The notes under the pieces were generated by a model that ran no database searches, was not told the DNA's origin, and saw only the letters and a program-made list of their open reading frames with translations. Shown piece after piece: positions 25,201-57,075 of a stretch of DNA of 64,000 bases. Every line of letters begins with the position of its first letter. Positions within the stretch are counted from its first letter, which is position 1. A program made the translations under genes and the position numbers. The stretch covers positions 1-64,000 of the forward strand of contig PUQB01000313.1 of assembly GCA_003024785.1 (NCBI GenBank), read 5' to 3'. The stretch comes from Selaginella tamariscina (lineage: Eukaryota; Streptophyta; Lycopodiopsida; Selaginellales; Selaginellaceae).

Positions 25201-25799
25201 GGATACATCCTTAGTATCTGAGGCAGTACAAGCTACAGGATTGACCGTGCCTGTTCCTGTACCAGTGTTGAAGACTCCTCCTCGACAGGATTCACCTCAT
25301 GTCAGTTCCTCAGCACATCCGCAGGCTCTCTCCACTCCTGTAAGTTTGCGGTTCCTGTACAGGGTTCTTCCAATCCTGTATCAGTGTCGAAGGTTCCTCC
25401 TCAACAGGATCCACCTCCTGTTGGTTCGTCAGCACACTCACAGGCTTTCCTCACTCCTGTGCAACCACGGACTCTGTACAGGATTCTTCCAATCCTGTAC
25501 ACTCGTCAACATCCACACAGGTTTTTCCAATCCTGCCTCTTTTGTTACTCTGCTTCTGTTCCCCCAAGATCCTTCCTCTTTTTCAGTCACAGCTCCCTCC
25601 TTCTCCTCTCCGAGTTCTTACCACTACCATGCATGAACTTGCCACTGATCCTGCTCCTTTCCACCTTTTTGCCTTTCAAGTAACTCCTACGTCCTCTTCT
25701 ACCTTTCCTGTATCTGACTCTCCTGTTTTTCAATCTCTCCTTCTCCTTCTCCTTTCCTCCTTCTTCCCTACCATCCAAGTATCACCTTTAAGGACGTTT

Positions 25800-27160
25800 T
25801 TGACAAGCACAAGGCTGCAGTTCTTCCTGTTCACAGGTCCTACGACTGTCCTATTGATCTTGCAGAAGGAAAGACTCCATTCGGACCGATTTATGCATTG
25901 TCACCCACAGAGTTGGAGGTTCTTCGTCAGTACATCGAGGACAACTTGGCATCCGGCTTCATTCGTCACTCAAAGTCCCCTGCAGGAGCGCCTATCTTCT
26001 TTGTCAAGAAGAAGGATGGGAGTTTACGTTTGGTTGTGGACTACAGGGGTTTGAATCAAGTCACCATTCGGAATCGGTACCCGTTGCCATTGATCCCGGA
26101 ACTTCTCGATCGGCTGCGAGGAGCAAAGGTGTTCACGAAGATCGACTTACGAGGGGCCTACAACCTTGTACGGATTCGTCCAGGCGATGAGTGGAAGACT
26201 GCCTTTCGTACAAGGTATGGACACTTCGAGTACACGGTGATGCCTTTCGGCCTTACCAATGCCCCAGCCGTGTTCCAACACATGGTGAACGACATCTTTC
26301 GTGACTTCTTGGACCAGTTTGTGGTGATCTACCTCGACGACATTTTGATTTTCTCCAAGGACCAGGCGGCACATGACAAGCATGTACGATTAGTTCTACA
26401 GCGGCTTCGCGAGCATGGCCTGTATGCGAAGTTGGAGAAGTGTTTTTTCGATAGGGATTCTGTGGAGTTCTTGGGCTACATCGTCTCTCCTGCTGGCGTT
26501 TCCATGGACATGCACAAGGTGAAGACCATCGTGGAGTGGGAGAGGCCCAAGTCTGTACGAGATGTACAATGTTTCCTTGGCTTTGCAAACTTCTACAGGC
26601 TTCATACAGGACTTCTCCAAGCGTGTACTTCCACTCACGGAACTCACCAAGCGCACAGGGTTTTCTCTTGGTCCGACAAGGCGGAACATGCATTCACAAC
26701 ACTCAAGGACGCCTTCACGACAGCTCCGATTTTAGCACATCCTGACCCTTCTCGTCCTTTCTTCGTTGAAGCAGATGCCTCGGATTTTGCAGTAGGATCC
26801 GTCCTATCACAAGTTGGAGAAGACAAGTTGCTTCATCCTGTAGCTTTTCACTCTCGTAAGTTCCTTTCGGCGGAGATCAATTACGAGATTCATGACAAGG
26901 AACTCAAGGCCATTGTGGATTCGTTCGAGGAGTGGCGGCATTTCCTGGAAGGTGCTGCACATCCTGTACAAGTTCTTACGGATCACAAGAACCTGGAGTA
27001 TTTTCAAACGGCTCGAGTTCTCAGTCGGCGACAGGCTAGGTGGGCGGAGTTCCTATCACGTTTTGATTTCGTCATCGTCTACAGGCCCGGTTTTCGGAAT
27101 GGCAAGGCGGACGCATTGTCTAGGCGCTCTTACCTTGCACCAACCCGGGCGATCCTGCAT
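25800..27160 (+). pseudogene. Reverse transcriptase-RNase H of the chromovirus
   Basis: The frame is open from upstream of 25898, where DLAEGKTPFGPIYALSPTEL leads into RT. Key blocks are [40 protein letters not shown], the catalytic YLDDILIFS, FLGYIVS and, after one small deletion near 26600, FSWSDKAEHAF. RNase H follows: [48 protein letters not shown], and the end GKADALSRR. These give a full RT-RNase H order with catalytic acidic residues present. Confidence 0.88.
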
Positions 27161-27432
27161 GACTGTCAAAGGCAAGTGTTGTTGGGTCCTGATCGATTCC
27201 GGCTTGCGGCACTACAGGTTCATCAGGCTCCAGCAAATTCAACACTCCTACAGGACATCCGTTCGCAGTTGGCTACAGACGACTTGGCAAAGAATGTGTT
27301 CTCACACATTCATCCTGACGCAAGTTCCTCTTCCTCCAGTTCCCGTCAGACTACAACCTGTTCACCATACAGGATGGACTCCTGTACCGGGAAGGTCTCC
27401 TGTACGTTCCTGTTGGTATTTCCAGGACTCGT

Positions 27433-28296
27433 GTGGTACAGGATTGTCATGATACCCCGGCTACAGGACATTTTGGTGTGGCCAAGACAGTGGAGTTGGT
27501 GACTCGCAACTATTGGTGGCCTGGGTTGCGAGGTTTTGTGGAAAGGTTTGTACGGAGTTGTGACACTTGTAACAGGTCGAAGATGCCTCATCATGCACCC
27601 TCTGGTCTTCTTCGTCCTCTTCCTGTTCCTTCTGCTCCTTGGAGATCCATTTCTATGGATTTCCTCACAGATCTTCCTCCTTCTCGTGGATTCGATGCAG
27701 TTCTTGTGGTGGTTGACCGTTTCACCAAGCAGGCTCATTTCCTACCCTGCAACAAGACAGCTACAGGTCAGACAACTGCTGAGTTGGTGATCCGTGAAGT
27801 GTTCCGACATCATGGTCTTCCTGAGAGCATTGTTTCCGATCGAGGTCCACAATTCATGTCCAAGTTTTGGCGAGAGCTTCTTCGGAGTCTACAGGTTAAA
27901 GCGGATCTTTCTTCAGGATATCACCCGCAAACTGATGGGCAGTCCGAACGCACAATTCAGACCTTGGAACAGTATCTTCGTTGCTTCATCAGTTACCAGC
28001 AGGACAACTGGTTGGACCTTCTTCCAATGGCGGAGTTTGCCTACAACAACTCCGTTCACGCATCTACAGGACAGACACCTTTCTTTGCTCTTACAGGCCA
28101 CCATCCACGTTTTGACTTTGCTCCTCCCGCTTCTCCTTCTTCCGCTCCTGCAGTACAGGATCTCCAGCATCTTCGTCAGGTACAGGATGATCTCCAGGTT
28201 CATCTTCAGCAGGCACAGGAACGATACAAGCATCATGCTGATGCTCACCGTCAGCCGGCACCTGCATACAAGATTGGTGATCTCGTTGGAACATAG
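27433..28296 (+). CDS. Integrase of the chromovirus
   Basis: HDTPATGHFGVAKTVELV followed by CDTCNRSK gives the HHCC zinc-binding end. The catalytic core has ISMDFLTDLPPSRGFDAVLV, VSDRGPQFMSKFWRELLRSL and YHPQTDGQSERTIQTLEQYL, so the DDE residues are all visible. The C-terminal part runs to YKIGDLVGT, where the frame breaks. Integrase inserts the element DNA into chromosomes. Confidence 0.88.
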   Translation: MVQDCHDTPATGHFGVAKTVELVTRNYWWPGLRGFVERFVRSCDTCNRSKMPHHAPSGLLRPLPVPSAPWRSISMDFLTDLPPSRGFDAVLVVVDRFTKQAHFLPCNKTATGQTTAELVIREVFRHHGLPESIVSDRGPQFMSKFWRELLRSLQVKADLSSGYHPQTDGQSERTIQTLEQYLRCFISYQQDNWLDLLPMAEFAYNNSVHASTGQTPFFALTGHHPRFDFAPPASPSSAPAVQDLQHLRQVQDDLQVHLQQAQERYKHHADAHRQPAPAYKIGDLVGT

Positions 28297-34643: not shown

Positions 34644-37600
34644 TCAAGGGCAGTATAACTTACTCAATTGGTCTGTATCATTAGCCTCGTACATCCACAA
34701 AGAATCTACCCGGGACTCGTTCCTTGTGAGTACTCTCTTTAACTGGCTAACGTGAAACACTGGGTGCACCCTCACTCCTTCTGGCAGCCGTAGTCGATAT
34801 GCCACCTTACCGATACGCTCCAGAATCTCATAAGGACCTGAGTACCTGGGAGACAACTTATCATTGCGTCCCTTCCGTAAGGCCACAACTGTGTTCCGCC
34901 TTACATGTGTGGCAAATACCACTCGGAGATATACATAATCCCCACCTGGAACTCTCGGAAGCTTCTGTGCTCATTAGCAAACTTGATAGCTCGGCTCTGA
35001 GCTGCTTGTAAGTTCTTCTTGCACAAACTCTGAATGTTTTCAAGTTCAACACTCAGATCTTTAGCTTCCTCATCCATGTTGCCTTGAGCCTTCTTACTTG
35101 CTAAACCGAGCTCAAAAGCTGTCTTGGGATGTCGTCCAAACATAGCATAGTATGGACTCATTCCAATGCCACTGTGCTGGCTGTTATTATAAGCAAACTC
35201 GAGTAATGGAATATACTTATCCCACTGACCTTCCTTCTGGTTAATAGTGCACCTTAGCATATCTTCCAGAACTTGGTTCACCCTCTCTGTTTGCCCATCT
35301 GTTTCGGGATGATCTCCGCTACACAGCTTAAGCTTCACTTCTATGCACTTAGAAAAGCCTCTCCAAAAGCTAGAAGTGAACTTGGAGTCCCTATCACTTA
35401 CAATATCATCTGGAAATCCGTGGATAGGAAATACATGTTGTAAATACATCGTAGCCAGCTCGGATGCATTCACATTCTTCCCCAAGGGAACTAACTTGAC
35501 AAACTTTGTCAACCTGTCCACAATGACCCACACCTGTTCATTCTGCCTCTGTGTCCTTGGCAAATGGGTGACAAAGTCCATAGAGATACTGCCCCATCGC
35601 CTGTCTGGAATAGGCAATGGTACTAATAGCCCACCTGGTTTCTCCCTGGGCACCTTTACTTGCTGACACTTGTCACAAGTCCTGCAGTACTCTATGATAT
35701 CAGCTTTCATATTCCTCCAGTAGAACCTCCTCTTGATCAACTCATACGTTTTCCTCCCCCCAAAATGACCAGCCTCCGGGCGATCATGATGAAAATATAG
35801 TACCTGGTTGATCAAATGGTCCACACGAGGAAGGTACACACGGCCATTGTAGTACAAAACCCCATCCTGAAATGAGAATGGTGGCTCTAGCTGTCCTCTG
35901 AGCTCCTGCACCTCGGCGTCTTGTGCTTGAGCATGTTGAACTACTTGGCTAAACTCACTGACCGTCCTTGTTAATGCATTACATAAGCGTGTTTGGAATT
36001 CTCCCACTACTGTGGCTCTCCTAACGCGTGACAAAGCATCTGCCACCACGTTAGTCTTTCCTGCGCGATGCTCAATAGGAAATTCGCCAAACTCCATGAG
36101 CTTAACCATCCAGCGAGCTTGCCGAGAGTTTAACTCTTTCTGTGTGAACAGATACACCAAAGGCTTGTGATCTGTAAACACCTTGAAACTTGCACCATAA
36201 AGATAGTGCCTCCAAACTCGTAATGCATTAACAATAGCCAGTAGTTCTTGCTCATACGTTGAGTACCGTTGCTCTGCAGGATTCAAAGTACGACTCTCAT
36301 AAGCAATAGGCCTTCCCTCTTGCATAAGTACAGCTCCAATGGCCACTCCACTTGCATCACACGATACCTCATAAGGCTTAGAGGGATCTGCAATACATAA
36401 AACTGGTGCACGTACCAAAGCTTGTTTCAAAGCTTGGAAACTGCTCTCCTCTGAAGCACTCCATGCAAAGGGAACGTCCTTCCTTAGCAACCTAGTTAAC
36501 GGAGAAGCTTTCTTGGCATAATCCTTGACATACCGCCGGTAATAACCAGCCATGCCCAAGAAACTCCGTAACTCTTGTGCATTGCTAGGAACTGGCCATT
36601 GCTCCACCACTGCCACCTTCTGTGGATCAGTCTTCACTCCACTTGGCGTCACAATGTGACCCAAATACTCCACTTCGCACTGAGCAAATGCACATTTGCT
36701 CTTCTTTGCATAGAGCTTGTTCTCCCTCAGCAATTGAAGAACTCTCCGCAAATGCTCCACATGCTCCTTCATATTCTTACTGTAAATAAGAATATCGTCG
36801 AGGAAGATCTCCACAAAGTCATGCAAGTAGTCACCAAACACCTCAGTCATCAACCGAGTGAATGTGGCTGGGGCATTTGTTAAGCCAAACGGCATAACAG
36901 TGAACTCAAAATGCCCGAAGCTAGTGTTGAAAGCAGTTTTGTAGATATCTGCCTCCTTCACAGCAATCTGATGATACCCGCTACGCAAGTCTATCTTGGT
37001 GAACACTCTGGCTCCACCGAGATGATCCATGATAGTATCCACACGTGGCATGGGCATCCTGTCCTTCACTGTTTGCTTGTTGAGAGCTCTGTAGTCTATG
37101 CACATCCTCATGGTGCCATCCTTCTTCCTGACAAGCAATACTGGTGCACCAAATGGAGACTTGCTCGGTTGTATGAAGCCATATTCCAATAGCTCCATCA
37201 CTTGTCTCTTAACCTCTTGCTCCTCAGCATGGCTCAGTCGGAACGGCTTACGGTAAATGGCTTTCGTACCCTGTTCCAACACAATCTCATGCTCCACACC
37301 TCTTGCAGGTGGTAAGCCATGAGGTAGCTCAGGAGGGAAGACATCAGCAAATTCCTCAAGGACAACTTGCACAGCAGCCTCGCCCAATGTGACATTAGAA
37401 GAATCTAACTCACGTATATACATCAGAAAGACTTGATCTTCTTTATTACGGAGATATTTCTTCAAAGACATAGTAGAAAGATACTTGTTTGGAGACTCAA
37501 GCCTTGTTCCAAACCAAGTGTCTTTCACTCCACTGTACTCAAGCTTCACTCGCTTGATGCTCCACTTGATCTCAGGATCCACACGCTCCAGCCAGCTCAT

Positions 37601-37924
37601 CCCAAGGATGAGGTCCACACGCGCTAGCTCCGCAAGGAAGAAAGTCTCCACCAGCTGAGTTTTGCCAACCGTCAGCTGTAACTCCTCCACACAAGCATTC
37701 CAGCTCTGTGTGACAGTAGCTGAGCCCTCAATCTCGTATTGAGGCACAGTCTTCATGGGCAAGCTGCACTCCTGCACTAACTTTGCTGATACAAAGTTAT
37801 CGCTACTTCCGCTATCCAAGAGGATTCGCACTGGACGTTCACCAAGTTGTCCCTCCACCACAATAGCACGTGTGTGTGGCTCCTCCCGTGCCATGCAGTT
37901 TACCTGTCGAGCAAGAACAGACAA
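34644..37924 (-). CDS. Pol polyprotein (protease-RT-RNase H-integrase)
   Basis: An open frame of 1,007 codons runs from 37924 to 34901, then a one-base deletion (a shortened G run) moves the rest into the frame 34922-34644. Protease: [18 protein letters not shown] and [71 protein letters not shown], and FLDDILIYS in place of the usual YLDD. RNase [17 protein letters not shown] to VVADALSR. Integrase: [12 protein letters not shown] with [33 protein letters not shown], and [16 protein letters not shown]. The end, [20 protein letters not shown], lacks a following chromodomain. Confidence 0.9.
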
Positions 37925-37928
37925 AAAT

Positions 37929-38989
37929 TTACCTCGTGGTTAGAACTATCTCCCTTGTGTTCCTCTCCACGCTCCATCTCCTGAAGCTTCTTAGGTGTCT
38001 CCTTGTCCTTGTCACCATTGAACCCCTTGCCCTTGGGCTTGTTCCTCCTGGACAATTGGCCTTCCAGTGTCCCACCTCTCCACACAGGTGGCAACGTTCA
38101 CTATCAAACACCTTGACAATCTTCTTAGGCCGATTGTCGGTGCGATAAGAACTAGAAGCTACCAGCTTGGACTTCGGCCTAGCACGATGGCTATTCCCTC
38201 TATACTCCTGGTGCTCACGAGGACTTGGAGAGGTGCTCCTACCACGCTTCTTGCCATGTCGCTCATTCTCCTTAAACACCTTATCCTCCTCATTTAGCAA
38301 GCGAGCATATTCGAACAGCTCCTCTAAAGTCTTGGACTGAATCACCGAGTTAAGATGTCTACGCAAGTTAGCACTTCGCAGCCCATCTACAAAATAATCC
38401 TTCTGCTGGTTGACAGACACGTCAGGTACACGGCAAAGTAATTGACTCAATTTCTCAATGTAATCGTCCAAGGTCATCTTCCCTTGCTCTAAATGTCGCA
38501 ATTCACGCCTTGCATGAGACACATCGAACCGAGGAGCATACTCCTTCTTAAATAGCTCAGAGAACTCCTCCCAAGTTGCAATCATCTCCTGGTGAGCTAA
38601 CTGGCGCTGATTTCGAATGCGTGTCCACCACCTCGCAGCTTTATCCTTCAAGGCTACTGATACAGCTATCATAGCCTGCTCGGTAGTCACTCCCTGTGCA
38701 GTGAGCAAGTTCGCTGCTATCTCAAGCCAACTCATAGCCTCATCCGCGATTCTTTACCGGTAAAAGGTGGAACGCGAAGACGATCTAGCACCCTGCTCTT
38801 ACCAGTCACGGTTCCTTGAGCAAGTTGATCTTCAATAGTATCCAACCGCTCACGAATCACCTCCAAGGAACCAGTCACGTACTCTTGAAATTGCTTGGAA
38901 TCCTTCGCCATAGCGTATAATTCGAGCACGATTTCCTGGTTCGTCCACTCCTCATTGGTGTTGTCTTCTCCTTCCCACCGGTCACTCAT
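37929..38989 (-). CDS. Gag of the short-LTR gypsy element (one frameshift)
   Basis: Starts [20 protein letters not shown] at 38989. The frame changes near 38735 within a [17 protein letters not shown] block that is normally continuous. It then has the capsid motif [18 protein letters not shown] and [15 protein letters not shown], and a CCHC knuckle, [14 protein letters not shown], at about 38100. Gag forms the particle; pol starts in a different frame a few bases after the gag stop. Confidence 0.88.
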
Positions 38990-45733: not shown

Positions 45734-46887
45734 TTATGCCACAGGATGGACGGGCACGGCACATCTTGGAACAAATGTTGTAAGAGGATCCATGTGTCGA
45801 GAGAGCACAATGGCATTTGCGGTCAACCTGTAAAAGTTCTGTGTGTAATGAATACCGTCCCAGCTTATGTACTTGTCAGGGCTGCTGCAGGGTGTCGCAG
45901 TTGGATCACATCCACACAAGTACTTGTCCTCCCCCACAGTTATATGGGCCGCCACCCTGGCCGCAGCATTGGTTGATCAAAGTGGTCAAAACCAAAGAAG
46001 TTTGCATGCTTCAAGATGTCACGTTAGCAGCGTACCAATCAAAGTACATCAAGTTTGCATCCGTGTACGTCTTCCTCATATCATCCATCATCTCCTTGAG
46101 CTTAGCGGATGCACCCATACTCGTCCCTGTGGACAGTGGTGACATTCTCACACTTCTTCAGGTACAGAGGGGAGCAGCCAGCCATGGGCATGTTCAACAA
46201 GAGGAAGTTCCTGGCACCATTCTGATACAGCATCGAGATACCGTCGATCGTACCTTGGATGGCTTGAGGGACAGCCTGTGGACCCAACGGTAGTATCTCG
46301 TAGTTTAGGTCGTCACCGCCTATCTCGATGAAGTAGAGTGCATTGGAGTACCATGCATCGGTAAGACACTTTGGGGTATGCCTCCTCCACTTGCTTCTTG
46401 CGAGAAAGGAAGTCCTGGATTTGGTTGGGAAATATGTGAGGGGTGGCAAACACACCTTGTTGGGGCAACACCGTCGCACCTAGGAACATACCAAATAAAT
46501 ATTTAATTAAGAATGTGTGTTACTAAATAAAGAGAGAGAACATACCTGCGTATCCAAAGTTGAGGCCTCGGAATGTGGAATCGTTGTAAAGAAGGCTTGG
46601 ACCCACAAGTTCAGAGATGTGCAACTACTCAGCAAAGCCAATCAACAATGATTTTCCCATCACCATACCTAAAATATGTATAGTTTTAGTTTAAACACGT
46701 AACACCTTGTTATACATGCATTAATGTACCTGGAGTTGCACATTGAGCAAGGGAGATTCCATAAGGACGCTCAGAAGCAACACAACCAGGACGGCAAAGC
46801 AGAGATTCCCAAAATCTGTGAGCGAATCTGCGAAGCTGAAGATTGCAGTTGGACAGAGTGTAAAAGTGTTAAATGCTTGAATTAAGC
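45734..46887 (-). pseudogene. GDSL esterase/lipase, main part, split by a transposon
   Basis: Minus-strand exons: 46887-46730 (continuing from 57028), 46668-46546 and 46479-45734, with GT..AG borders. Exon 1 reads PTAIFSFADSLTDFGN, with the catalytic Ser block FxDSLTDxGN. Exon 2 reads YGDGKIIVDWL and later STFRGLNFGYAG. Exon 3 reads ALYFIEIGGDDLNYEIL (block with GGND-like GGDD), GARNFLLLNMPMAGCSPLYL, and ends SWDGIHYTQNFYRLTANAIV with the catalytic Asp and His of the DxxH block. These are secreted plant hydrolases acting on lipids and esters. Internal frameshifts near 45950 and 46110 add to the damage. The first 14-16 codons lie 10 kb away at 57075-57028. Confidence 0.85.
46879..46887. repeat. 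Left target-site duplication of the MULE element
   Basis: GAATTAAGC, matching GATTAAGC at 57028-57035 apart from one A. Joining the GDSL exon through one copy restores an open frame. Confidence 0.8.
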
Positions 46888-46916
46888 GGGTCTCAGCGAA
46901 AAGGAGGCTCCGGCTC
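46888..46916 (+). repeat. Left terminal inverted repeat
   Basis: Starts GGGTCTCAGCG and includes GGAGGCTCCGGCTC. It pairs imperfectly with the right end. Confidence 0.75.
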
Positions 46917-46972
46917 AGGAGGCTTCATATTATTTAGTATATTCGCAGATATTCTAGGGTTATTCTAGCATA

Positions 46973-47047
46973 TTCTAGAATATTCTCAAGAATATTCTAG
47001 AATATATAAGTTTTTTTAATATGCCGACTGGCTTAATATATGCCGAC
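46973..47047. promoter_or_regulatory. Left subterminal GAA/TTC array and GCCGAC pair
   Basis: 46973-47002 reads TTCTAGAATATTC, a 4-base gap, then GAATATTCTAGAA. These are two perfect three-unit heat-shock-element patterns (inverted GAA units at 2-base spacing). Two GCCGACTGGCTTAATA repeats follow at 47023 and 47042. GCCGAC is the CRT/DRE core bound by CBF/DREB factors and also the core of the internal array. Function is inferred from motif only. Confidence 0.6.
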
Positions 47048-47082
47048 TGGCTTAATAAACATTATCCTAAACCCTAAACCAT

Positions 47083-50000
47083 TTATCCTTGTAGCACCGG
47101 TGGGTCATGAACTCTGTTGCAATTCACCAGCAAACGGTGGACCTCCATCTCACTGAGCGATCGCCTTTGTAGAAAATATGTGACGTCCGGGTTCAAGCCA
47201 AGCACACGGCTATAGACGAAGTACATGTGTACACATGGGCTCCAACTTTTGCTCTTCTGAAATGTAGAACAACTGCATGAAGGATAAGTATTAATAGTCA
47301 CCTTTGCAGAGTCATTTCCTGCCGACACAACGAAAGCCTCCTTCCGTCCTCTAGCTGTCACTTCAACATTTCGCACACAACCTAAAAACGTCTTGGCCTT
47401 GCGGAAATTCTTCTCTTGTTCCTTAGACATTTTTGTTGGAGTCCGGACCATACGTCCTTCGAAAGGTGGAATTGTTGTAGATCCAGCTCCACGTGGTGGC
47501 GATGGTGTTTTGTCCTTCTGACCCTCATCTACTCTTCCTGCCATCCCCTGTAAACCTTCCAGAACAAAGCCTGCATCCTGTAGTTCTCTGACCTCCTCAC
47601 TTGTCAGCTTCGTTTCCTTGAGCACAGGCCAAACCGTTGGTGGTGTTGGAATTCGTGACCGAAGAATTTTGCCGTTTGGCCGCGTGAAACACCCTGAATC
47701 TTTTGGGCAGAACCACATCATCTGTTGTACATACTCCTCATTCCCCAAGGCATCAATGTACATTCGTTTTCCATAGAATCCTGGTGCTGGCACTCTGCTT
47801 GGATAACCGATTGGTTTTCCACACAGAGCAGTTCCTTCCTGATTCATCCCCAAACACTTAACCTTACTGGATGCTCCGATTCGTCTGATGGCCCACTCTG
47901 TTTGAGCAATCTCTCTCTCCGAAACCTCTTCGAACCTTAACCTCTTTCTCCTGTTGTTTTGGACCACCCGCTCTGTGTACTCTACATCATGTCTGTGTGA
48001 ACGTCGAGCATCAGACTGTTCTGTTCCTGTGACTGTTCTCCTAACAGTTTGCACTCGAACGTTAGTGGTACTCGTGAACTCCGGGCTGGTCAAGTGTTCC
48101 TGCCTTCCACCAGATTGATAATTGTTGATGGAGATACACTTTTCCCCTCAGAGAGTTTGCGTTGCACTCGTTTCAACAGAGTTTCCTTCGAAGGTCCTGA
48201 CCCTGTATACCTCCCTTCTATTGCCGCTTTCACCTTCGCACTCTGCATAACTGCATCGGTGAGGTCTAACATTGTCGCCTTAGCAGTGGTACTCTTTTGG
48301 CCAATCTTGCTCTTCTTGCTTGCGTGAATCACTTCAGCATTGTTTGTAGTTGGAACGCTCGCGAGTCCTTCTTCTGTCATGTCTCCCAGTTCCGCCATGG
48401 AGATGTGTCCTCATTGTCATAGTTTTTACTATGACTCAACCCTTTACTTTGGACGTTGACTGTTGTTACTACTGTACTATGTTGATGGACCCTAGATGTA
48501 GTAGGAAACAGGCCCGCTTAGTGCACTTGGGTATCTGGTGATGGTCCGGCCGGGTGTCATTAGGTATTTGCAGGAAACTCTAAGCGAAGCTAGAACTTAC
48601 CTTTTAAAGACCCACCCCCAATTTTGACGTCCCGAATAGGTTGTTTGGTCTTTGCAAATGAGTTCGGCGTGTTAAGTAGGGTTAGGAACACCTAGGGTTG
48701 ACCTAACCCTAGGGTTGCCCTAACCACGCCCTAAAAACCCCCACCCCTTGGGTAGGGTTTAGGGGTAGGAGTAAGGGTGAGTTATAGGCTCATATTGCTA
48801 ATTTATCTAAGGGGCTAGAATTCAGTGCCACCACTAATACAAACAGGAAAAGAGGGGGGGGCTCCATCACATAAATAAGGTAGAGTATACGTAGGAGAGC
48901 TCCTGGGTTCATGAATGAGTTCGTTGCTCTTCTGCCGGTGCAAGCTTCAGCTTGTGTCGTTAAGGTACAACCCTCTGTTGTGCCGCCCTAACTTCCAGAT
49001 GCCAGGGATACGTCCACCTTCGGGTAGCTTACCCTTAACGTTGGCGAATCCATGCCTGGGAGGTTTTGTCGGGATGCACGTTCCAAGAGGCAGAGGTTGA
49101 GGCTTATCTCCAACCTCCTCCTCCACGTCAAGCTAGGTGTAGCACTCATGGCCAAGCAAGGCACATCTGTGTCCTTGTCCAACTGTGGGCGTGGGATCTT
49201 GTTTGACAGGTTCACGTTACTTGGTTCCTGAGGGTTCATTGAGGGGTTCTAGAATTGACATTTAGGAACCACGTTTGTGGTACTTGGTGCAACTCTTGAA
49301 TCTAAGGGCTATGCATGATAGCCCACATCTTGGAAGGCAGTGTCACATGGGGATGTGACACTGGGCTAACGTCACATGGTACAACGCCCGAGGCACGCCC
49401 TTTGGGGTTATGTCATGGGCTTGTCGCTAAGGGGTTGGATACTCTAGCAAACAGGCATGCTTGTGCTTGCACTAGGTGCTAAGCCTTGGGCATCCGCTCG
49501 AGGAGGTTAGGTCTTGTAACTAGGTGTGCTTTGGCACACTTGGCTAGGGGAGTGTTCTCCTTGGAATCCAGGGGTTGAACAACCTAAGCTCATTAGCAGA
49601 AGCCCTTTCGTAAGGCACTCGCAAGGTCATGTGCTTAGGGTTATCCCAAACCTAGAGTTTGCTTAGCAGAACACTCGTGTTCGCCTACGGCGCACACTCG
49701 TGTCCTCACTAAGTACTAGCCCTAGGTCTAGGGTGTAACTTGGCCACTCAAACCCTTAGGGGTTAGTCGTGGTTCAGGGTACCCCTTGTCGCCCTAAAGG
49801 GTTGTACCCGGATGAGGGTGATTCCTCAAGGGTAAGTGACAATGCCTTAGCTCTATCACGGGGGTATGTGTGGAACACACGTCTCCTTGATGGGGTTAGG
49901 GCATGAGCCTGTCTAGATCTTCTAGGGCAGACCCTAAGTCAACTAGGGTTATCCCTCAAGGGTTCTGGGGGCAGACATTCTAGGGAGACTTAGGCTAAAC

Positions 50001-51986
50001 CCTAAGTCTCTTGTCCACTTGGGCATTAGAGTCTAACCCTAGGGGTCGTTGGGTTGTTCTGGGGAACTTAGCGTTGCTCACACAAGGTGATGATGCCGAA
50101 TGGCCACCTGGCAGCCACGTGTTGCCATGTGTTGGCCCTTTGGGTTAAAACTCTGACACTCATGCCTGATCCACCAAGACAGCCATGTCTTCAAAGCTCG
50201 AATGTTTGACGCTCGTCCTTCCCAAAAGACTCGAGAATTGCCAGTTGTTCTTTCTTAGATTGTTCATTCAGTGCTGCAGGCCAGGCACGAGCAAGCTTCA
50301 TGTGTTCTTCGCGATGTTCTTCTGCGATCCATTTCTTTGTCACCTGACGCACGGATTGCATAAAGTGAAACAGACAGCTTCTTTCCCTCCCTTTCATCTT
50401 TGCTCCGTTGTTGAATACTTGGCGCAAGGCTATCCATATCGCTCCAGCCTCATCCGACATGAAACCAGCAAAGTTGACATTCTCCAAACCCTGCTTCTTA
50501 CAAACCTCTAGCATTGTGTTCAAGAACTTCAGCACTGCAACATTATCTTCGCGGCACATATCTGCGTAAGCTATAGTCACCATGGATCTGACACTGCAAG
50601 AGAGCGTTAGATAACGAAGATTAGAAAGTGTTATGAAGAGTTTTACAACTTACAATGGGTCATAAAGGTGTATTCCAATTGTCGCCCAGTCTGGTATGCG
50701 GTGCGTGTGGTCCAGAACAACCCATTGATCATGAAGGTCTCCTCCACTTTGACACCTTCTGATGTACTCAACTCCTGAACCCGGTCCCTCAACTGTCATT
50801 TTGAAGATCAGAGGCTGCTCCTCAGCACCATGCAGTTCCATCCCTGGAACATGTATGACGTGAATGAAAGGTATTGGCAGCTTTGTCTTCAGCTCCAGAA
50901 GACCCTCGTAACCCTCTCTAAAGTGTGTCTCCTTCTGTCTTGATTGTGTAATCCAGTCCCGAGTCCTAAAGAAAAGGTCACGTCAGTGTGTAGAGATCTA
51001 AAAAAAATACCTTCGATGGTTTGTTAGAGGTTCAAGTTTTGAGAGTAAACCAGTGTACGAGACTTCTCCTTCTTCCTTGAAAAGTTCTTCAAAGATGAGC
51101 TCACGCGCGGCTTGAAACTCAATCACTCGTTGATTGGTTCGCGGACTGCTCTTTACCACGTTGCTGACACTAGATCTGGCTCGCTGAACGTTTGAAGCTG
51201 ACACTGAGGGGCTGACTGGATGCTGATGAACACCTCTGTGAATGAACAACCTTGTAAAAGAAATGTCGTCTGGCAGAATGTAGTACACATAAGCCGGACA
51301 AGTGTGCACCAGCAATGGCTCCTCTCCACAATGCTTACATTTTATGCCTATTACTTTGCCTGTCTCAGTTGTCTTTGCCTTCTCCACAGCACCCTTGAAG
51401 TGACATTCATTTGCTTTCTTCTCAAAAGCCAAGTAGGGGTAGGATTGATGCATTGGAGATGTCCGACACATGAACTTCGACTGACTCGCGCCGGAACATG
51501 CCAGTGTGTTGTGCTCGGGTGTGTCCAATGGTAGCAGCCATCCTTGCGATTCATCCCCGAGTACTTCTCTGTGCTTTCTGTCTTAGGGGGAAGTTCGAAA
51601 ATGACATTTCCATTGTATATCTGCGGTAGTTCAGAGACTCGTTTAACTTCAGACGAACCAATGAGATCCTTCCCTATCCTACATTTGTCTGCTCTTAGAA
51701 GACACACCAGCATGGATTCCTCACGCTCCTCTGTCCGCAACCTGAACAACGGGCCCTTTGCCGGGCACAATGTGTAAAAGACAAACTGGTTTGATGCATT
51801 GCCTTCTGGTAACAACTCCACATCTTCTCCAGAACTCGCAGAAACTGACATCAATTGAACCACATGTATACTGAACCAACAAGGAATGTTGAAAGCAATG
51901 TGAAGATCATGTTCAAACACAAAAGCATTTCCATCTTCATCGACTGGGAAATCTTTGTCAATGCCTTCATAGGTAACTCTGGCCAT
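47083..51986 (-). pseudogene. MULE-type transposase with SWIM zinc finger, split by a solo LTR
   Basis: ATG at 51986 (MARVTYEGIDKDFPVDEDG). The gene is read leftward with introns 51010-50966 and 50653-50594. The N-terminal part has a zinc-binding block, CKHCGEEPLLVHTCPAYVYY with a later HRGVHQHP, resembling DNA-binding N-ends of MULE/FAR1-type proteins. The catalytic core shows WVVLDHTHRIPDWATIGIHL (first Asp), GFMSDEAGAIWIAL (second Asp) and, across the LTR insertion, LASVPTTNNAEVIHASKK, the usual TTNN-VE block. A C-terminal SWIM finger reads CSCSTFQKSKSWSPCVH (CxCxnCxH), followed by a short tail to the stop at 47083. Frameshifts lie near 51450, 48400 and 48090, and the solo LTR at 48415-50158 cuts the core, so this copy cannot supply transposase. 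Confidence 0.85.
48415..50158. mobile_element. S-type solo LTR inside the MULE transposase gene
   Basis: 1,744 bp, starts TGTCATAGTTTTTACTATGA and ends TTAAAACTCTGACA. The target duplication CTCAT flanks it at 48410-48414 and 50159-50163. The first bases form a perfect hairpin, GTCATAG with CTATGAC. A tract of G and A near 48850 precedes a GGTAGAGTATA region. Same family as 22333-30523, 15646-16801 and 32035-33214. Confidence 0.92.
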
Positions 51987-52039
51987 GACAACGCAAGGAG
52001 AAAGCTCGGTGGTTTAGGAAAGCAAAGCAAAAGATTAAA

Positions 52040-52480
52040 CACACTTTCTTACCAAAAAAAAATTACAATCGTTAAAATAAACGTGAATACACGTTTGTAT
52101 ATAATTAATTCTATGCTGCCCAGTTCACAGTGTTCTTAATGATGTCCTCTCTAGTATCACCGATTTAATTTAATTTCTACCTTTTATGATTTGAAATATC
52201 TTCACATTTACCAATTATTCACATATTTTAAAATAAACCCTAAATATTAATGTCACATTTATTCCGTAGGGTTCACTGTTTTCATTGCGGCTAGGGTTTT
52301 TTGGTAGATAGGGTTTACTGTTTCCATTGCGGCTAGGGTTCTTTCAATCTCAGATCTGTTTCCACTGCGGTAGATCCAGAGGGTTTCTTTAATCTCAGAT
52401 CTCAGAGTTACGGTTTCCACTGCGGCGCCATCCATTTCGACTCGATTCGTGCAGCGCCCAAGTATAACAATGGAGATTTC
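52040..52480. promoter_or_regulatory. Divergent promoter region with GCGG-type repeats
   Basis: This lies between the two outward-reading transposon genes. 52265-52425 holds about four diverged units built on GTTTCCATTGCGGCTAGGGT and ATCTCAGATCT. TAGGGTTT motifs resemble the plant telo-box. It probably contains the start of the rightward transcript, because spliced-looking cassettes begin at 52481. Confidence 0.5.
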
Positions 52481-53580
52481 TGTGCCGATTTAGATTCTCG
52501 GCACCATCCTGCTCAGCCGGCGGCCACAAGGTATGTGTAATTTCTGTATTTTATGATTTGCTGCTCAAGTATTTCTTTTTCCAGAGATATAGGGTCTTCT
52601 TATTTGTGCCGACTGAGAGCAACGGCACCATCCTGGTTCAGTCGGCAAACACAAGGTATCGTCGATTTATTTATTTTTTTCCTTGCGGCTCAAGTATACG
52701 TGTCACAATGTTTTTTTTCAGAGTTAATGGGTCTTTCCATTTGTGCCGACTGAGAGTGACGGCACCATCCTGGTTCAGTCGGCAAAAACAAGGTATTTTC
52801 GATTTGTTTTTTTTTGCTTTCTGGCTCAAGTATTCGTATCACAAGGTTTTTTTTTCAGAGTTAATGGGTCTTCCCATTTGTGCCGACTGAGAGTGACGGC
52901 ACCATCCTGGTTCAGTCGGCAGCCACAAGGTATTTCGATGTTTATTTTTTGCTTTCTGGATCAGTATTCGTATCACATTTTTTTTTCAGAGTTAATGTGT
53001 CTTCCATTTGTGCCGACTGAGAGTGACGGCACCATCCTTTCAGTCGGCAGCCACAAGGTATTTTGATATGTTTTTTTTTGCTTTCTGGATCAAGTATCGT
53101 ATCACATTGTTTTTTTTCAGAGTTAATGTGTCTTCCATTTGTGCCGACTGAGAGTGACGGCACCATCCTTCTTCAGTCGGCAGCCACAAGGTATTTTGAA
53201 TTTGTTTATATTTTGCTTGCGGCTCAAGTATCCGTATAACAATGTTTTTTTTCAGAGTTATAGTGTCTTCCCATTTGTGCCGACTGAGAGTGACGGCACC
53301 ATCCTTCTTCAGTCGGCAGCCACAAGGTATTTTGAATTAGTTTTTTTTTTCTTTGCGTCTCAAGTATTTCTTTTAAAACAGTTAATGGGTCTTCCCATTT
53401 GTGCCGTCTGAGAGGGACGGCACCATCCTATCTCAGTCGGCACCATTATCTCTTCTGTGCCGTCTGACAGAGTCGGCACAAACTATCTCAGTCGGCAGGT
53501 TTTTTCTTCTACATCTCTCTGCCGACTGAGAGGGTCGGCAGCATCTAGCTTGAGTCGGCAGCCACAAGGTTAGTCATCTT
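52481..53580 (+). repeat. Tandem array of micro-exon/intron cassettes with GCCGACTGA palindromes
   Basis: Eight or so units follow one another at 124-137 bp. Each typical unit starts after a T-rich TTTTTTTCAG acceptor, runs AGTTAATGGGTCTTCCCATT, then GTGCCGACTGA, ACGGCACCATCC, TCAGTCGGC, and ends CCACAAG before a GTAT donor. Exon-like segments are 52585-52655, 52722-52792, 52859-52929, 52990-53057, 53121-53190 and 53256-53326 (68-71 nt), with 60-66 nt introns between. Unit 0 (52481-52530) and the last compound unit (53382-53568) are variants. Each exon holds two overlapping inverted repeats, GTGCCG/CGGCAC and GCCGACTGA/TCAGTCGGC, that cannot both form. The array ends just before the coding exon of the ParB-methyltransferase gene, so it is probably its 5' leader. 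Confidence 0.85.
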
Positions 53581-53635
53581 TGTTTGTTTTTTTATTTTGA
53601 CTCCTCATCAATTGACTTGTGTGTTTACTTTCCAG

Positions 53636-56600
53636 AGTTCCCAAAATGGTGAGAGCTTCAAAACGTCTACTAGAGACTGCGCCTGATGAAGAGCCACGAG
53701 AAGAGGATATCGAAGCAGAAGCGAGGCAAGAGAGGAGAACCATCTAATGTACCAAAGGAGGATCCTCCAGTGACTCAGTCTGGAGTAGTAGCAGTTGAGC
53801 AAGAACAGCCTCCACCAACAATCACAGATTTCCCGGAGAGCTCGTCGCAGTTGCCTCCTTCATCCGCTGAGGTTGCAGTCCTGAACGAGCAAGTGCAGAT
53901 GACAGAGGCGCTGAAGCTAGCGAGGACGACTTGGAGGAGGCAGTCAGCAAAAAGAGAGGCCGCGGGAAAGCTGATTCAAAAGGCAAGAAGGCGAAGAGCG
54001 ATAAGGAGCCGAAGGAGTTATACAGCATACCGGCGAGCCTGCATTTGGAGAGCTCAGCAAACCTGCTCGACAAAATTACTATCAAGGGACTTGGTGATCC
54101 TCCTGATGTGCCCATCTGCAGAATACATTCCAACGAGGTGGTTCGACGAGTGAACCCAGGGGACTTGGACAGGCTGGTGTCATCGTTGAAGAAGGCTGGT
54201 TATCTACGCAACACGGCCTGTTCATTCTGTCCATCGGAGATCGACTCACTGCTGAGGAGCTATCGGAGCTGTCGAAGGACACGATTCAGTACGAGCAGCA
54301 CCGGTCTTTCGAGCAAGCTCTTACTCAGCCGGAGTACAAAGTGGGCTTCAAGGCTCTCAAACAGGAAGTTTAGCTGTTGGGACGGGAACCATAGGCTACA
54401 GGCTTTGCAGAAGCTGTACCGAGAGGATGCAGAGGACAACCAGCGATGGGCTATTCGCGTTCGATCGAGTTTCATCTCCACGGAGAACCTCGACATTCTT
54501 CAATTGGTTTCGATGTTCCAATCGATTAACATGTGAGTATTTTCTTTTCTTTTTGTTAAGAGTTTAGACTTACAGTTTCGTTGAACAGATCTTCAGCAAC
54601 ATCTGTGGAAACAACGCTACCACATATTCTCCTCGCTGTAAAGGCGGTCTGCACTAGTACAGAAGGAACTCAGAAAATCCTCGAGTCACTCACGTTGATC
54701 GTCTTGAGGTGCGGAAGTGGAAGGAGAGTTCAGGGAAAGACGGCTTGGCATCCTCTTCCGAACCTGATCTGCGCAAAGATACTTTTCAAGGTAACCTCCG
54801 ATTTAATTTATAGGAAAGAAATTTTTAACTTGTTCTATGTGCAGAACGAGATCGACGATGATCTCGACAGAGCAGTCACCAGTGCTAAGGGCAATCCACA
54901 GGTTGAGGTGAACCTGAAGCAGCTAGCAAGAAGCATGACAAGCGTATGCACAAGTTCCTCTCCATCATAGACCCAGACTTGGGGGAGGAGTGGTTCCAGA
55001 AGGTGACAAACATCTCTCATAAGCAGTGTCGCTGGATGGGCATTGAGAAGCTGTATGCGATGTCAAGGGCGAAGATTCCAAACATGCTGCGACTCCGATA
55101 CCTCAACAAGCTCACCCGTCTCGAATCCAAGGCAGAACAACAGACACTTGGGCTACCGGGCATGCAGGACAAAGAGTGGATCAAGTGGTTCACCTTGGAC
55201 TTATATTGGAAGGCTGTGCGCGAGGAAGCCATTCAGATCCTTAAGGGGTTGCGAGAGGATGGTGAAGAAGTTGGAACGGATGTCGACTTCATGAGCTGGT
55301 TTGACGAGATGAGAATTCGGAGCAAGTGCCTGGTCTTTCAGCCCTTCCATGACTGCATACGGTTCACTTATTCGATGGAGCCGAATGAGTTTCTGGAGCG
55401 TGAGGAATCTGCGCGTCGGATGATATGGAGGTAAGCTTTCAATCCAGCATTGCTACTGTCTGACTTTGTGTTGCAGGTTCATACTGGCGAAGCAAATGAC
55501 ACCGTCCCATACGATGAAGCTGTGGACAGATCATACAAGCGAGCCTCACATGTGGTCGAAGAGCAGAGGAGCTCTAACACCGTTCGAACGGGAGCATGTT
55601 CCATTCTGGCTCGACTGTCCGTCGCAACAGCCACCAGCTTGGGAGAGCACACTATTCGACATGCACGCCAATGATCTACCAGCGATTCTTTGGGAGCCAG
55701 AAGAAGTAGAGGCTATCAAGAAGAGCAAGATGAAGAAGACGGTGCGGAAGACAACTACACCTGCAAAGGGATCGGGAGCGGGACCAAGCTCTTCTACAGC
55801 ACCTCCGCCGGCATTCGACTTTACAATCAATGAGGTACAGCCACTTGTAGCTAGTTTGGACATCAAGGACGACCTGATGACCTTCATCCCGACCCTGGCT
55901 GCATCCCGTGGATCCTACGACCTAGCTGTGTGCGACATGGAGGAGATGAGCAGGTCTTTCTTCGAGCCAGGTGCTTCCCAGACAGAGGTGTACACCAAGC
56001 TCCGAGAACAGGTTGACAGACTACATACGGTTGAGTCACAAACGTTGTTCCAGGAAGTGGTAGGTGAATACGGCTTCAACCTCATCATCCTCGACTTGCC
56101 CAATGAGCTTGTATATGGAGGTGCTAGCATCAACAAGGACATTGTGCAGCTAGATCCGGTGAAGTTTGAGGAGGCCTTGCAGTTCAGTGGAATGCACTTG
56201 GCAGCGAGTGGTTTCATGGTCGTCTTCGCGAGTTCTCCTTCTGTTTCGGCGGTGATTCAGGCGGCTGCAGTAATCAACTTGGAGGTTGCAGGGACTTACA
56301 GCGTCTACCGTGCACGAGGCTGGGGATACCGTGACAAAATTAAGGTAAGCTAGCTATTCAAGTTCAAGTTTAACTTGGTCTATGTGGCAGGATAACTTGT
56401 TAGTTCTCTTGGTGCTGCAAAGCTCTGAGAAGAAGTCGAAGAGGCCAAACCCTCTGGCGTTGACGAACACGATCCTCGTCGACACTGCCGACCGTTATCA
56501 GGAGGCTTGGTAAGGAAGTGCTTTGCTATGTTTATCCTAATGGAAGTTGTGCAGGATTATGATTCAACCGAAGAGTGTTCGACTCATGCAGCTTTTGATC

Positions 56601-56852
56601 GAGCGTCTCAGTAGACCTGGCGACCTAGTCTGGGATATTGGTTCCGGAACCGGGTCATCATTGTTAGCTGCCGTCGAGCTCGGAAGGAATATTATAGGAA
56701 CCGAGAAGAGTTTCGAACTCTCTAGGTTGGCAACAAACAAGCTTGCAGAGAACATTAGACCAGAAGAGTTACCTACTCAAACACCTCCACGTCCAAGCGT
56801 AACTGGTGGTTCGAGAACTGCAGCTTTACTTAAGATGAAGAAGAAACTTTAG
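53636..56852 (+). CDS. ParB/sulfiredoxin-like and N4/N6-type DNA methyltransferase-like fusion protein
   Basis: Exons: 53636-54532, 54589-54790, 54845-55430, 55477-56344, 56391-56519 and 56565-56852, with introns of 45-56 bp, all GT..AG. ATG at 53646 (MVRASKRLLETAPDEEPREE). The N-end is basic and Pro/Gln-rich. The ParB/Srx-like domain reads VVRRVNPGDLDRLVSSLKKA to CWDGNHRLQALQKLY; GNHR..A is the family nucleotide-binding block. A long helical middle part reads ALYF-unrelated FQKVTNISHKQCRWMGIEKL and IKWFTLDLYWKAVREEAIQI and is unrecognised. The C-end has permuted methyltransferase order: NLIILDLPNE where the DPPY catalytic motif belongs, then PKSVRLMQLLIERL, LVWDIGSGTGSSLLAA (AdoMet-binding motif) and GRNIIGTEKS. 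Stop at 56852. Frameshifts near 53740, 53930, 54210 and 54370 interrupt exon 1; later exons read cleanly. ParB-methylase fusions are known in phages and bacterial mobile elements; possible role here is binding or marking element DNA. Confidence 0.8.
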
Positions 56853-56930
56853 CTAATGTATATTGAGTAATAAATTAAGCTAATATAAAAAAAAAATAGA
56901 AATACAACAGTTTTAATAGAATTCTTTTTT

Positions 56931-56998
56931 GCCGACTGAGGCCAATACTGCCGACCAGAAAGAATATTCAAAATATTCTAGAATATTCTTGAATATTC
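56931..56998. promoter_or_regulatory. Right subterminal GCCGAC pair and GAA/TTC array
   Basis: GCCGACTGAG at 56931 and GCCGACCAG at 56950 are followed by GAATATTC and then five alternating TTC/GAA units at 2-base spacing (56974-56998). It mirrors the left subterminal region in content. Confidence 0.6.
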
Positions 56999-57027
56999 GA
57001 GCCCAGGCCTCCAAAATGGCGACACTC
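56999..57027 (-). repeat. Right terminal inverted repeat
   Basis: Read inward on the minus strand it begins GAGTGTCGCCA and includes GGAGGCCTGGGCTC, matching the left end imperfectly. Confidence 0.75.
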
Positions 57028-57075
57028 GATTAAGCTAAGCATGGCTAACATAGCAATGCACACGTTCATCACCAT
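57028..57075 (-). pseudogene. GDSL esterase/lipase, first codons (signal peptide)
   Basis: The ATG at 57075 opens MVMNVCIAMLAMLSLI, a hydrophobic signal-peptide start. It then runs into the target duplication and the transposon. Joined to 46887 through one copy of the duplication, the frame continues without a stop into the GDSL active-site block, which shows that this is the missing 5' end of the gene at 45734-46887. Confidence 0.85.

Follow-up and report, generated by a model that had tools for sequence, protein, structure and literature searches.

A two-gene Mutator-like transposon family in Selaginella tamariscina carries a conserved protein with ParB-like and methyltransferase-like regions and arrays of a shared motif

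Positions 46888-57027 of the 64-kb stretch of Selaginella tamariscina DNA analyzed here (contig PUQB01000313.1, positions 1 to 64,000; hereafter the window) form a single copy of a two-gene, Mutator-like cut-and-paste transposon whose family in this plant is large and has been active recently. In addition to a transposase, the element encodes a second protein, referred to below as the cargo, which combines ParB-like boxes with an N6/N4-methyltransferase-like C-terminal domain. The two genes travel together both in this family (family 1) and in a second family (family 2), purifying selection has long acted on the cargo protein, and the non-coding parts of both families share a motif, TGCCGACTG, that is best read as the putative binding site of an element-encoded protein. 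The cargo is an old, functional part of the element. We lean, with modest confidence, towards the view that it may serve as an anti-silencing accessory protein that binds DNA at TGCCGACTG sites, with its methyltransferase-like domain contributing to binding rather than to the writing of a mark.

Results

Two divergent genes travel together in two transposon families

The initial annotation had described a single element with inverted termini, a target duplication of 8-9 bp and two divergent, intron-containing genes, all of which was borne out by comparison with further copies. The borders at 46888 and 57027 are exact to the base, because the same terminal sequences, GGGTCTC[GA]GC[GA]AAAAGGAGGCT ... 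CCTCCAAAATGGCG[AG]CACTC (matched with at most three differences), bound the window copy and other genomic copies, giving an element length of 10140 bp. The left terminus (GGGTCTCAGCGAAAAGGAGGCTCCGGCTC; 46888-46916, plus strand), which recurs in other copies, and the right terminus (56999-57027, minus strand), which is shared with them, form a short, imperfect inverted repeat of ~30 bp that is fixed across copies. They are flanked by a target-site duplication of 9 bp, GAATTAAGC on the left (46879-46887) and GATTAAGC on the right (57028-57035), the latter with one base missing; 9-bp duplications are also present around other copies. Between the termini, the transposase gene (47083-51986, minus strand) and the cargo gene (53647-56852, plus strand) point away from a central spacer (51987-53646) that separates their start codons.

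To find copies, the whole assembly (300.7 Mb in 1391 contigs) was searched. The last cargo exon produced at least 150 scored matches (1315 candidates), and among those listed at least 117, the window included, are 100% identical. Twenty family-1 copies were fetched from these matches for detailed comparison. Both genes are at least partly present in 17 of them, the remaining three (L022, L024 and L026) comprising cargo parts only, and 11 span the entire transposase gene as well as the cargo; in others, such as L009, L010 and L011, the transposase start is missing. Splicing of the cargo by script worked for 16 copies, and an open cargo frame of 991-995 aa was found in three of the 20 (L015, L018 and L027). 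No full-length transposase frame was present among the 11 readable family-1 copies, the longest reaching 919 aa (L013). When the window is counted in, 15 family-1 copies possess both ends. Seven of these show an exact 8-9 bp duplication (L009, L011, L013, L015, L016, L019 and L023) and six a near match that has one or two differences or is of low complexity (L017, L018, L020, L021, L025 and the window), with no match in the last two (L010 and L028).

The association of the two genes extends beyond the fetched copies. When family-1 transposase matches were compared with the 150 last-exon matches, a cargo partner lay at the expected place for at least 34 of 51, compared with none of 51 in each of two control placements (the 51 were taken from 60 matches, leaving out seven of family 2 and two of C725). 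The second family, which has the same organization, was reached by searching the genome with a distant relative of the transposase, P0001. For at least 114 of 133 family-2 transposase matches, a cargo exon lies as far away as expected, on the other strand (133 of 150 matches were used, leaving out 17 of family 1 with 80% identity, and the cargo lists comprised 150 of 150 and 132 of 150 matches). These partner counts rule out a chance pairing of the two genes. The initial annotation had asked whether other copies with both genes exist, and the pair is indeed present, at least in part, in 17 of the 20 fetched copies and also in a second family.

One family-2 copy, L032, has open frames for both proteins, a transposase of 1018 aa and a cargo of 1011 aa, which are 65% (658/1016) and 56% (547/978) identical to their family-1 counterparts, respectively. 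In both families, the two genes lie on opposite strands and the cargo introns occupy matching junctions. All five cargo introns of L032 (60, 52, 57, 52 and 52 nt) are located at family-1 junctions, and a GT-AG gap of 51-60 nt is present at each of the five junctions in L032, L035 and L037, although this positional agreement is partly built in, since family-2 introns were sought at the family-1 junctions. The frameshifted copy L033 gave other intron choices, and L036 has no start. An exact 9-bp duplication flanks two of the four two-ended family-2 copies (GTTCAGCTT in L033 and TCTTACAAA in L035); none was found around L032 and L037.

Two further candidate families were rejected. The supposed third family at C516 proved to be a family-1 copy (L038) that has undergone rearrangement and in which parts of the transposase and the cargo share a strand, and C725 (L034) also belongs to family 1. 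Three additional candidate sites lie at C565, C1016 and C586. Compared with L018, the diverged family-1 copies L025, L026 and L028 show many CpG changes (45, 35 and 21), with 0-3 in the other copies tested, a pattern that methylation and decay of old copies would produce.

The cargo is maintained by purifying selection

The cargo protein consists of a low-complexity N-terminus, the ParB-like boxes, a conserved middle region and the methyltransferase-like C-terminus; its gene is frameshifted in the window and open in some other copies. Its five introns, all on the plus strand, are located at 54533-54588 (56 nt), 54791-54844 (54 nt), 55431-55476 (46 nt), 56345-56390 (46 nt) and 56510-56554 (45 nt), and the first has its family-2 equivalent at the matching junction.

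Among family-1 copies with enough changes for a test, which are not independent of each other, non-synonymous changes in the cargo fell below the neutral mean expected for a matched mutation spectrum in 11 of 11 cases, and constraint was clear in nine (reached in at most 2 of 400 simulations). The transposase of the same copies gave a weaker signal, with low values only for L019 (16/400) and L025 (6/400) among 11 rows, because it had accumulated few changes. Between the two families, synonymous sites of the cargo are saturated (pS 0.84) while non-synonymous divergence (dN) is 0.37, again pointing to selection. Identity is highest in the ParB-like block (59%), the middle region (62%) and the methyltransferase-like block (56%), and lower in the N-terminus (39%) and the linker (37%).

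Both families share a motif in the central spacer and near the ends

The motif TGCCGACTG fills the central spacer in both families and recurs near the element ends. In the window, its form TGCCGACTGA occurs at 27 sites when one mismatch is allowed, compared with 2.3 expected, and 21 of these sites lie within the element. Two copies of TGCCGACTGG, 19 bp apart, form a left subterminal pair (47022-47050, plus strand), and TGCCGACTGA and TGCCGACC, likewise 19 bp apart, form its counterpart on the right (56930-56956, plus strand). Between the two start codons, family-1 elements contain a 137-bp tandem repeat (6.5 copies at 52576-53442 in the window) in which TGCCGACTGA ... TCAGTCGGCA are arranged as inverted pairs ~31 bp apart, with 0-7 exact pairs per copy. 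Of the 15 two-ended family-1 copies, 14 have the motif close to each terminus, the exception being L025, which has no left one. In family 2, it takes the form of a 20-bp palindrome, CCAGTCGGCATGCCGACTGG, which recurs through the central spacer with a period of mostly 39-40 bp and is present 8, 5, 7, 1 and 9 times in five copies; L032 additionally has a single site near each end, one exact and one with a mismatch. Repeat number thus differs between copies in both families.

The non-coding parts of L018 and L032 contain the 9-mer CAGTCGGCA 17 and 19 times, respectively, whereas in 200 shuffles no shared 9-mer was seen more than twice. A single exact site was found in the flanks of family-1 copies; it belongs to L017, where the flank includes a portion of another copy as well. 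Because the motif has been kept despite the saturation of synonymous sites, arranged in spaced pairs (family 1) or as a palindrome (family 2), we read it as a putative binding site.

The ends carry a second kind of array, made of AGAATATTCT-type units with nGAAn/nTTCn modules (46961-47005 on the left and 56960-57001 on the right), whose alternation we take to resemble that of a heat-shock element. Similar units lie near the ends of family-2 elements, in L032 at 617 and 8456, and among the 9-mers common to the two families AGAATATTC ranks second. All five three-module nGAAn/nTTCn matches in the window fall within the two end arrays.

When the 137-bp units (52576-53640) were inspected by eye, the motif pair was seen to be preceded by a T-rich CAG and followed by AAG/GTAT. 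Given these surroundings, the units may represent 5'-leader exons in tandem, accompanied by mini-introns.

The cargo retains a cofactor-binding motif and lacks a recognizable catalytic tetrapeptide

The methyltransferase-like domain proposed by the initial annotation is recognized by the Pfam profile N6_N4_Mtase (PF01555) in both families, with scores of 39.2, 35.8 and 36.5 bits at a cut-off of 26.7. The S-adenosylmethionine (SAM)-binding motif I, DIGSGTG, which is encoded by the last cargo exon (56555-56852, plus strand; profile positions 165-219 of 221), is kept in both families. The C-terminus of the cargo also matches PHROG DNA methyltransferases and, weakly, beta-class enzymes in the PDB (MboIIA, 2.6e-4; CcrM, 8.7e-4). 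However, all these matches are confined to the C-terminal, SAM-binding part around motif I, and the catalytic motif IV, [DNS]PP[YFW], is absent throughout the full cargo proteins of both families. In an alignment that is not significant, the DPPY of CcrM is placed opposite DLPN, a tetrapeptide kept in both families and in 19 of 19 rows of the family-1 alignment (the window included); in a multiple alignment, the DPPY of three phage enzymes is placed elsewhere. The lack of a catalytic tetrapeptide in both cargo proteins makes a role in binding or recruitment likelier than one in writing.

The second domain assignment, a ParB/sulfiredoxin-like (ParB/Srx) region, is upheld by its two boxes, which are kept in both families in the order typical of ParB (RRVNP.DL..L..S.KKA.GY followed by CWDGNHRL..LQKLY, corresponding to a helix box, SI...G, and a GxxR box), but not by statistical significance. 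Neither Pfam (ParB_N) nor the PDB provided a ParB/Srx match for the cargo, no library profile finds the ParB-like region, and a ParB profile run over the genome had no match at E<=10. Searches with this region gave no useful match in plasmids and one chance match in phages. A home-made profile built from 14 ParB sequences and run without filters placed the family-1 region first (E 0.059) among the 762 entries that were reported out of 1006, and that of family 2 17th, and a profile-profile comparison of ParB with the cargo region by hhalign gave a probability of 3%. The ParB-like identity is a reasonable lead suggested by the order of the boxes and aided by the published architecture of algal proteins (see below).

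A search of a set of 5.8 billion proteins identified no relative of the cargo at E<=1e-3, nor at E<=10, among the best 8000 word-sharing candidates scored, and searches of viral contigs and genome contigs yielded no useful match.

The transposase is Mutator-like

The transposase was initially called Mutator-type with a SWIM finger. Consistent with this assignment, target duplications within the 8-11 bp range of the Mutator superfamily occur in both families, terminal inverted repeats are present, and the motifs VVLDHT, FMSDE and CLFH, which we take to be the D/D and CxxH motifs of a D/D/CxxH transposase, are kept in both families (as judged by eye) and have counterparts in P0001. However, the Pfam MULE profile (PF10551) matched neither the family-1 (899 aa) nor the family-2 (1018 aa) transposase, and the C-terminal SWIM-like zinc finger scored 16.6, 17.9 and 14.5 bits, below the cut-off of 19.6. 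Given the missing PF10551 match, we name the elements Mutator-like rather than filing them as members of the Mutator superfamily. P0001, a 766-aa protein from a 3-kb contig, is 30% identical to the transposase at 53% coverage and was the only distant relative among 7444 candidates scored from 5.77 billion proteins. The transposase gene has two introns on the minus strand (50966-51010, 45 nt; 50594-50653, 60 nt).

The window copy is damaged

In the window, both genes carry frameshifts, and the transposase gene is additionally split by a solo long terminal repeat (LTR) of 1744 bp with TG..CA ends (48415-50158), flanked by the target duplication CTCAT (48410-48414 and 50159-50163). The LTR is a later insertion outside the two-gene system, given that in 14 of the 20 fetched copies the alignment breaks off after 48414 and continues from 50159. 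Over the aligned coding sequence, a single substitution separates the cargo of the window from that of L018, yet the window cargo shows eight deletion events and no insertion relative to the consensus of the copies, so that some of its frame breaks may be assembly errors rather than decay. Across the family-1 cargo alignment (the window and 18 copies), 200 deletion events and 14 insertions, mostly of 1 bp, separate the copies from the consensus, which suggests either residual assembly error or deletion-biased decay. On the inner side of the right end, all 20 fetched copies contain ~16 bases more than the window.

Elsewhere in the window, stretches related to the LTR lie at about 15.7, 22.3-22.7, 29.5 and 32.0 kb, the longer ones with 72-84% identity to the solo LTR. 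Two Ty3/gypsy bodies (25718-28296 and 34901-38753) match reverse transcriptase, RNase H and integrase, the second also gag and protease. The window further contains a dirigent gene, and a LEAFY domain match was found in the genome; both are in keeping with a land plant.

Discussion

The conserved gene pair and the motif arrays suggest a division of labor between the two proteins. The transposase would move the element, and the cargo would act as an element-specific, DNA-binding accessory protein that gathers on TGCCGACTG sites. By analogy with the VANC proteins of Arabidopsis, which achieve this for VANDAL elements in a different way, it might keep the promoter region shared by the two genes active and thereby counter the silencing of elements of its own kind. 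The initial annotation had proposed that the cargo could bind or mark element DNA or act against silencing, and the shared motif arrays make such a role more plausible. Its methyltransferase-like domain probably holds SAM and DNA, and is more likely a binding or recruiting module than a writer of N6-methyladenine (6mA) or N4-methylcytosine (4mC). Both the binding and the anti-silencing function are predictions from sequence.

Several observations weigh against this interpretation. The cargo of L023 (124/400) and L027 (23/400) showed no significant selection. The shuffle control does not include tandem duplication, which inflates both counts of the shared 9-mer, and outside the central spacers CAGTCGGCA is shared only two and one times. 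As the motif also lies near the ends, the transposase rather than the cargo could be its binder, and if the 137-bp repeats are transcribed leader exons, the motif pairs may have a role in RNA. The ParB identity is significant by no profile. Finally, it is uncertain where the lost motif IV should lie, because the alignments with CcrM and with the phage enzymes disagree, and if the cargo had an unusual active site, the step from the missing tetrapeptide to binding instead of writing would be wrong.

In an alternative that we consider unlikely, the cargo would be an active enzyme, an N6-adenine or N4-cytosine methyltransferase guided by its ParB-like region, that modifies element DNA and separates the element from host DNA or keeps it open. 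The N6_N4_Mtase score above the cut-off and the SAM motif kept in both families would fit such an activity, and similar algal proteins have been described by their authors as possibly binding and modifying their own transposon (PMC12477816). Nevertheless, [DNS]PP[YFW] occurs nowhere in either cargo protein, and DLPN, which only the insignificant alignment sets against the DPPY of CcrM, is unchanged in both families. It is also rather improbable that the cargo is a transposition co-factor, required for excision or integration and devoid of an epigenetic role, with the transposase or a transposase-cargo complex binding TGCCGACTG. While the constant association of the two genes and the motif sites near both ends of nearly all two-ended family-1 copies (14 of 15) and of L032 would be expected in this case, the bulk of the sites is found in the central spacer, well away from the termini, where an end-binding transposase has no need of them, and the number of repeats varies freely. 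The capture of a passenger gene by chance, as in Pack-MULEs, is frequent among Mutator-like elements, but the same gene, on the same strand, with the same intron junctions and the same neighbor, recurs in two families with saturated synonymous sites and is under purifying selection within family 1, such that we reject a captured host gene as highly improbable.

Going beyond the anti-silencing role favored above, it is tempting to speculate that a bacterial-type ParB-DNA-methyltransferase has turned into a catalytically silent, SAM-binding reader of TGCCGACTG arrays. This tentative and, in our judgment, rather doubtful scenario would provide a VANC-independent system of self-recognition and anti-silencing that is older than a family split beyond synonymous saturation, and it might be linked to heat stress by way of the nGAAn arrays at both ends.

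Transposon accessory proteins of this class have hardly been described. Our findings extend them beyond algae to a plant that possesses a LEAFY gene and tie a candidate target to such a protein, in the form of a motif common to two families with saturated neutral sites. The role of ParB-methyltransferase proteins thus becomes directly testable, with one protein, one 20-bp palindrome and many near-identical copies. Moreover, as the catalytic tetrapeptide is missing in both families, a binding role is predicted, and 6mA or 4mC marking should not simply be assumed.

The initial annotation had known of no described plant MULE with such cargo. In a full-text literature search, which covered the titles and abstract openings of the papers listed, outside subscription papers, we found no ParB-methyltransferase case from a land plant or a Mutator-like element, but accessory proteins of this kind have been published for algal transposons. 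According to PMC12477816, the transposon Sola1-1_Ec32 of the brown alga Ectocarpus encodes a ParB-methyltransferase accessory protein, with further cases cited from green and red algae. Like the cargo, this protein comprises ~1000-1100 aa, combines a ParB-like region with an N4/N6 methyltransferase-like domain and is encoded in a DNA transposon on the strand opposite the transposase. Sola1-1_Ec32, however, is a 21.5-kb Sola1 element of a brown alga, whereas we describe two Mutator-like families of ~8-8.5 kb with 9-bp duplications in a plant, which further differ from it, as far as its description allows comparison, by their shared motif arrays and the absence of a catalytic tetrapeptide. Phage fusion proteins, such as those of the Streptococcus phages Javan117 and Javan25, similarly join a ParB-type N-terminus to an N6/N4 methyltransferase C-terminus; unlike the cargo, the three examined are 388-418 aa long, have no middle domain (by eye) and contain a canonical DPPY.

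Within the Mutator superfamily, the groups tabulated in the survey PMC6446971 resemble our elements in their 9-bp duplications, their SWIM finger (a SWIM-like candidate here) and their one or two open reading frames (ORFs), with second ORFs occurring; the table rows considered list FAR1, PMD, DUF, SET, ovarian-tumour and unknown ORFs, and the words ParB, methylase, methyltransferase and bryophyt are absent from the main text of the survey. A close parallel in anatomy is provided by the VANDAL elements of Arabidopsis, whose tandem non-coding repeats contain YAGTATTAY sites that are bound by VANC, which causes a loss of methylation (PMC5735166). Both systems combine an accessory gene with motif arrays in non-coding repeats whose number varies between copies, as reported for VANC targets. 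However, the motifs differ (YAGTATTAY or AGTTGT[CA]C for VANC, TGCCGACTG here), the accessory protein of Selaginella, unlike VANC, contains a methyltransferase-like domain, and anti-silencing, demonstrated for VANC, is in our case a prediction (PMC5735166). ParB-methyltransferase proteins were thus already known from algal transposons, to judge from the sources cited; new is their occurrence in a plant, in Mutator-like elements that resemble VANDAL and VANC and include a candidate cis-site component.

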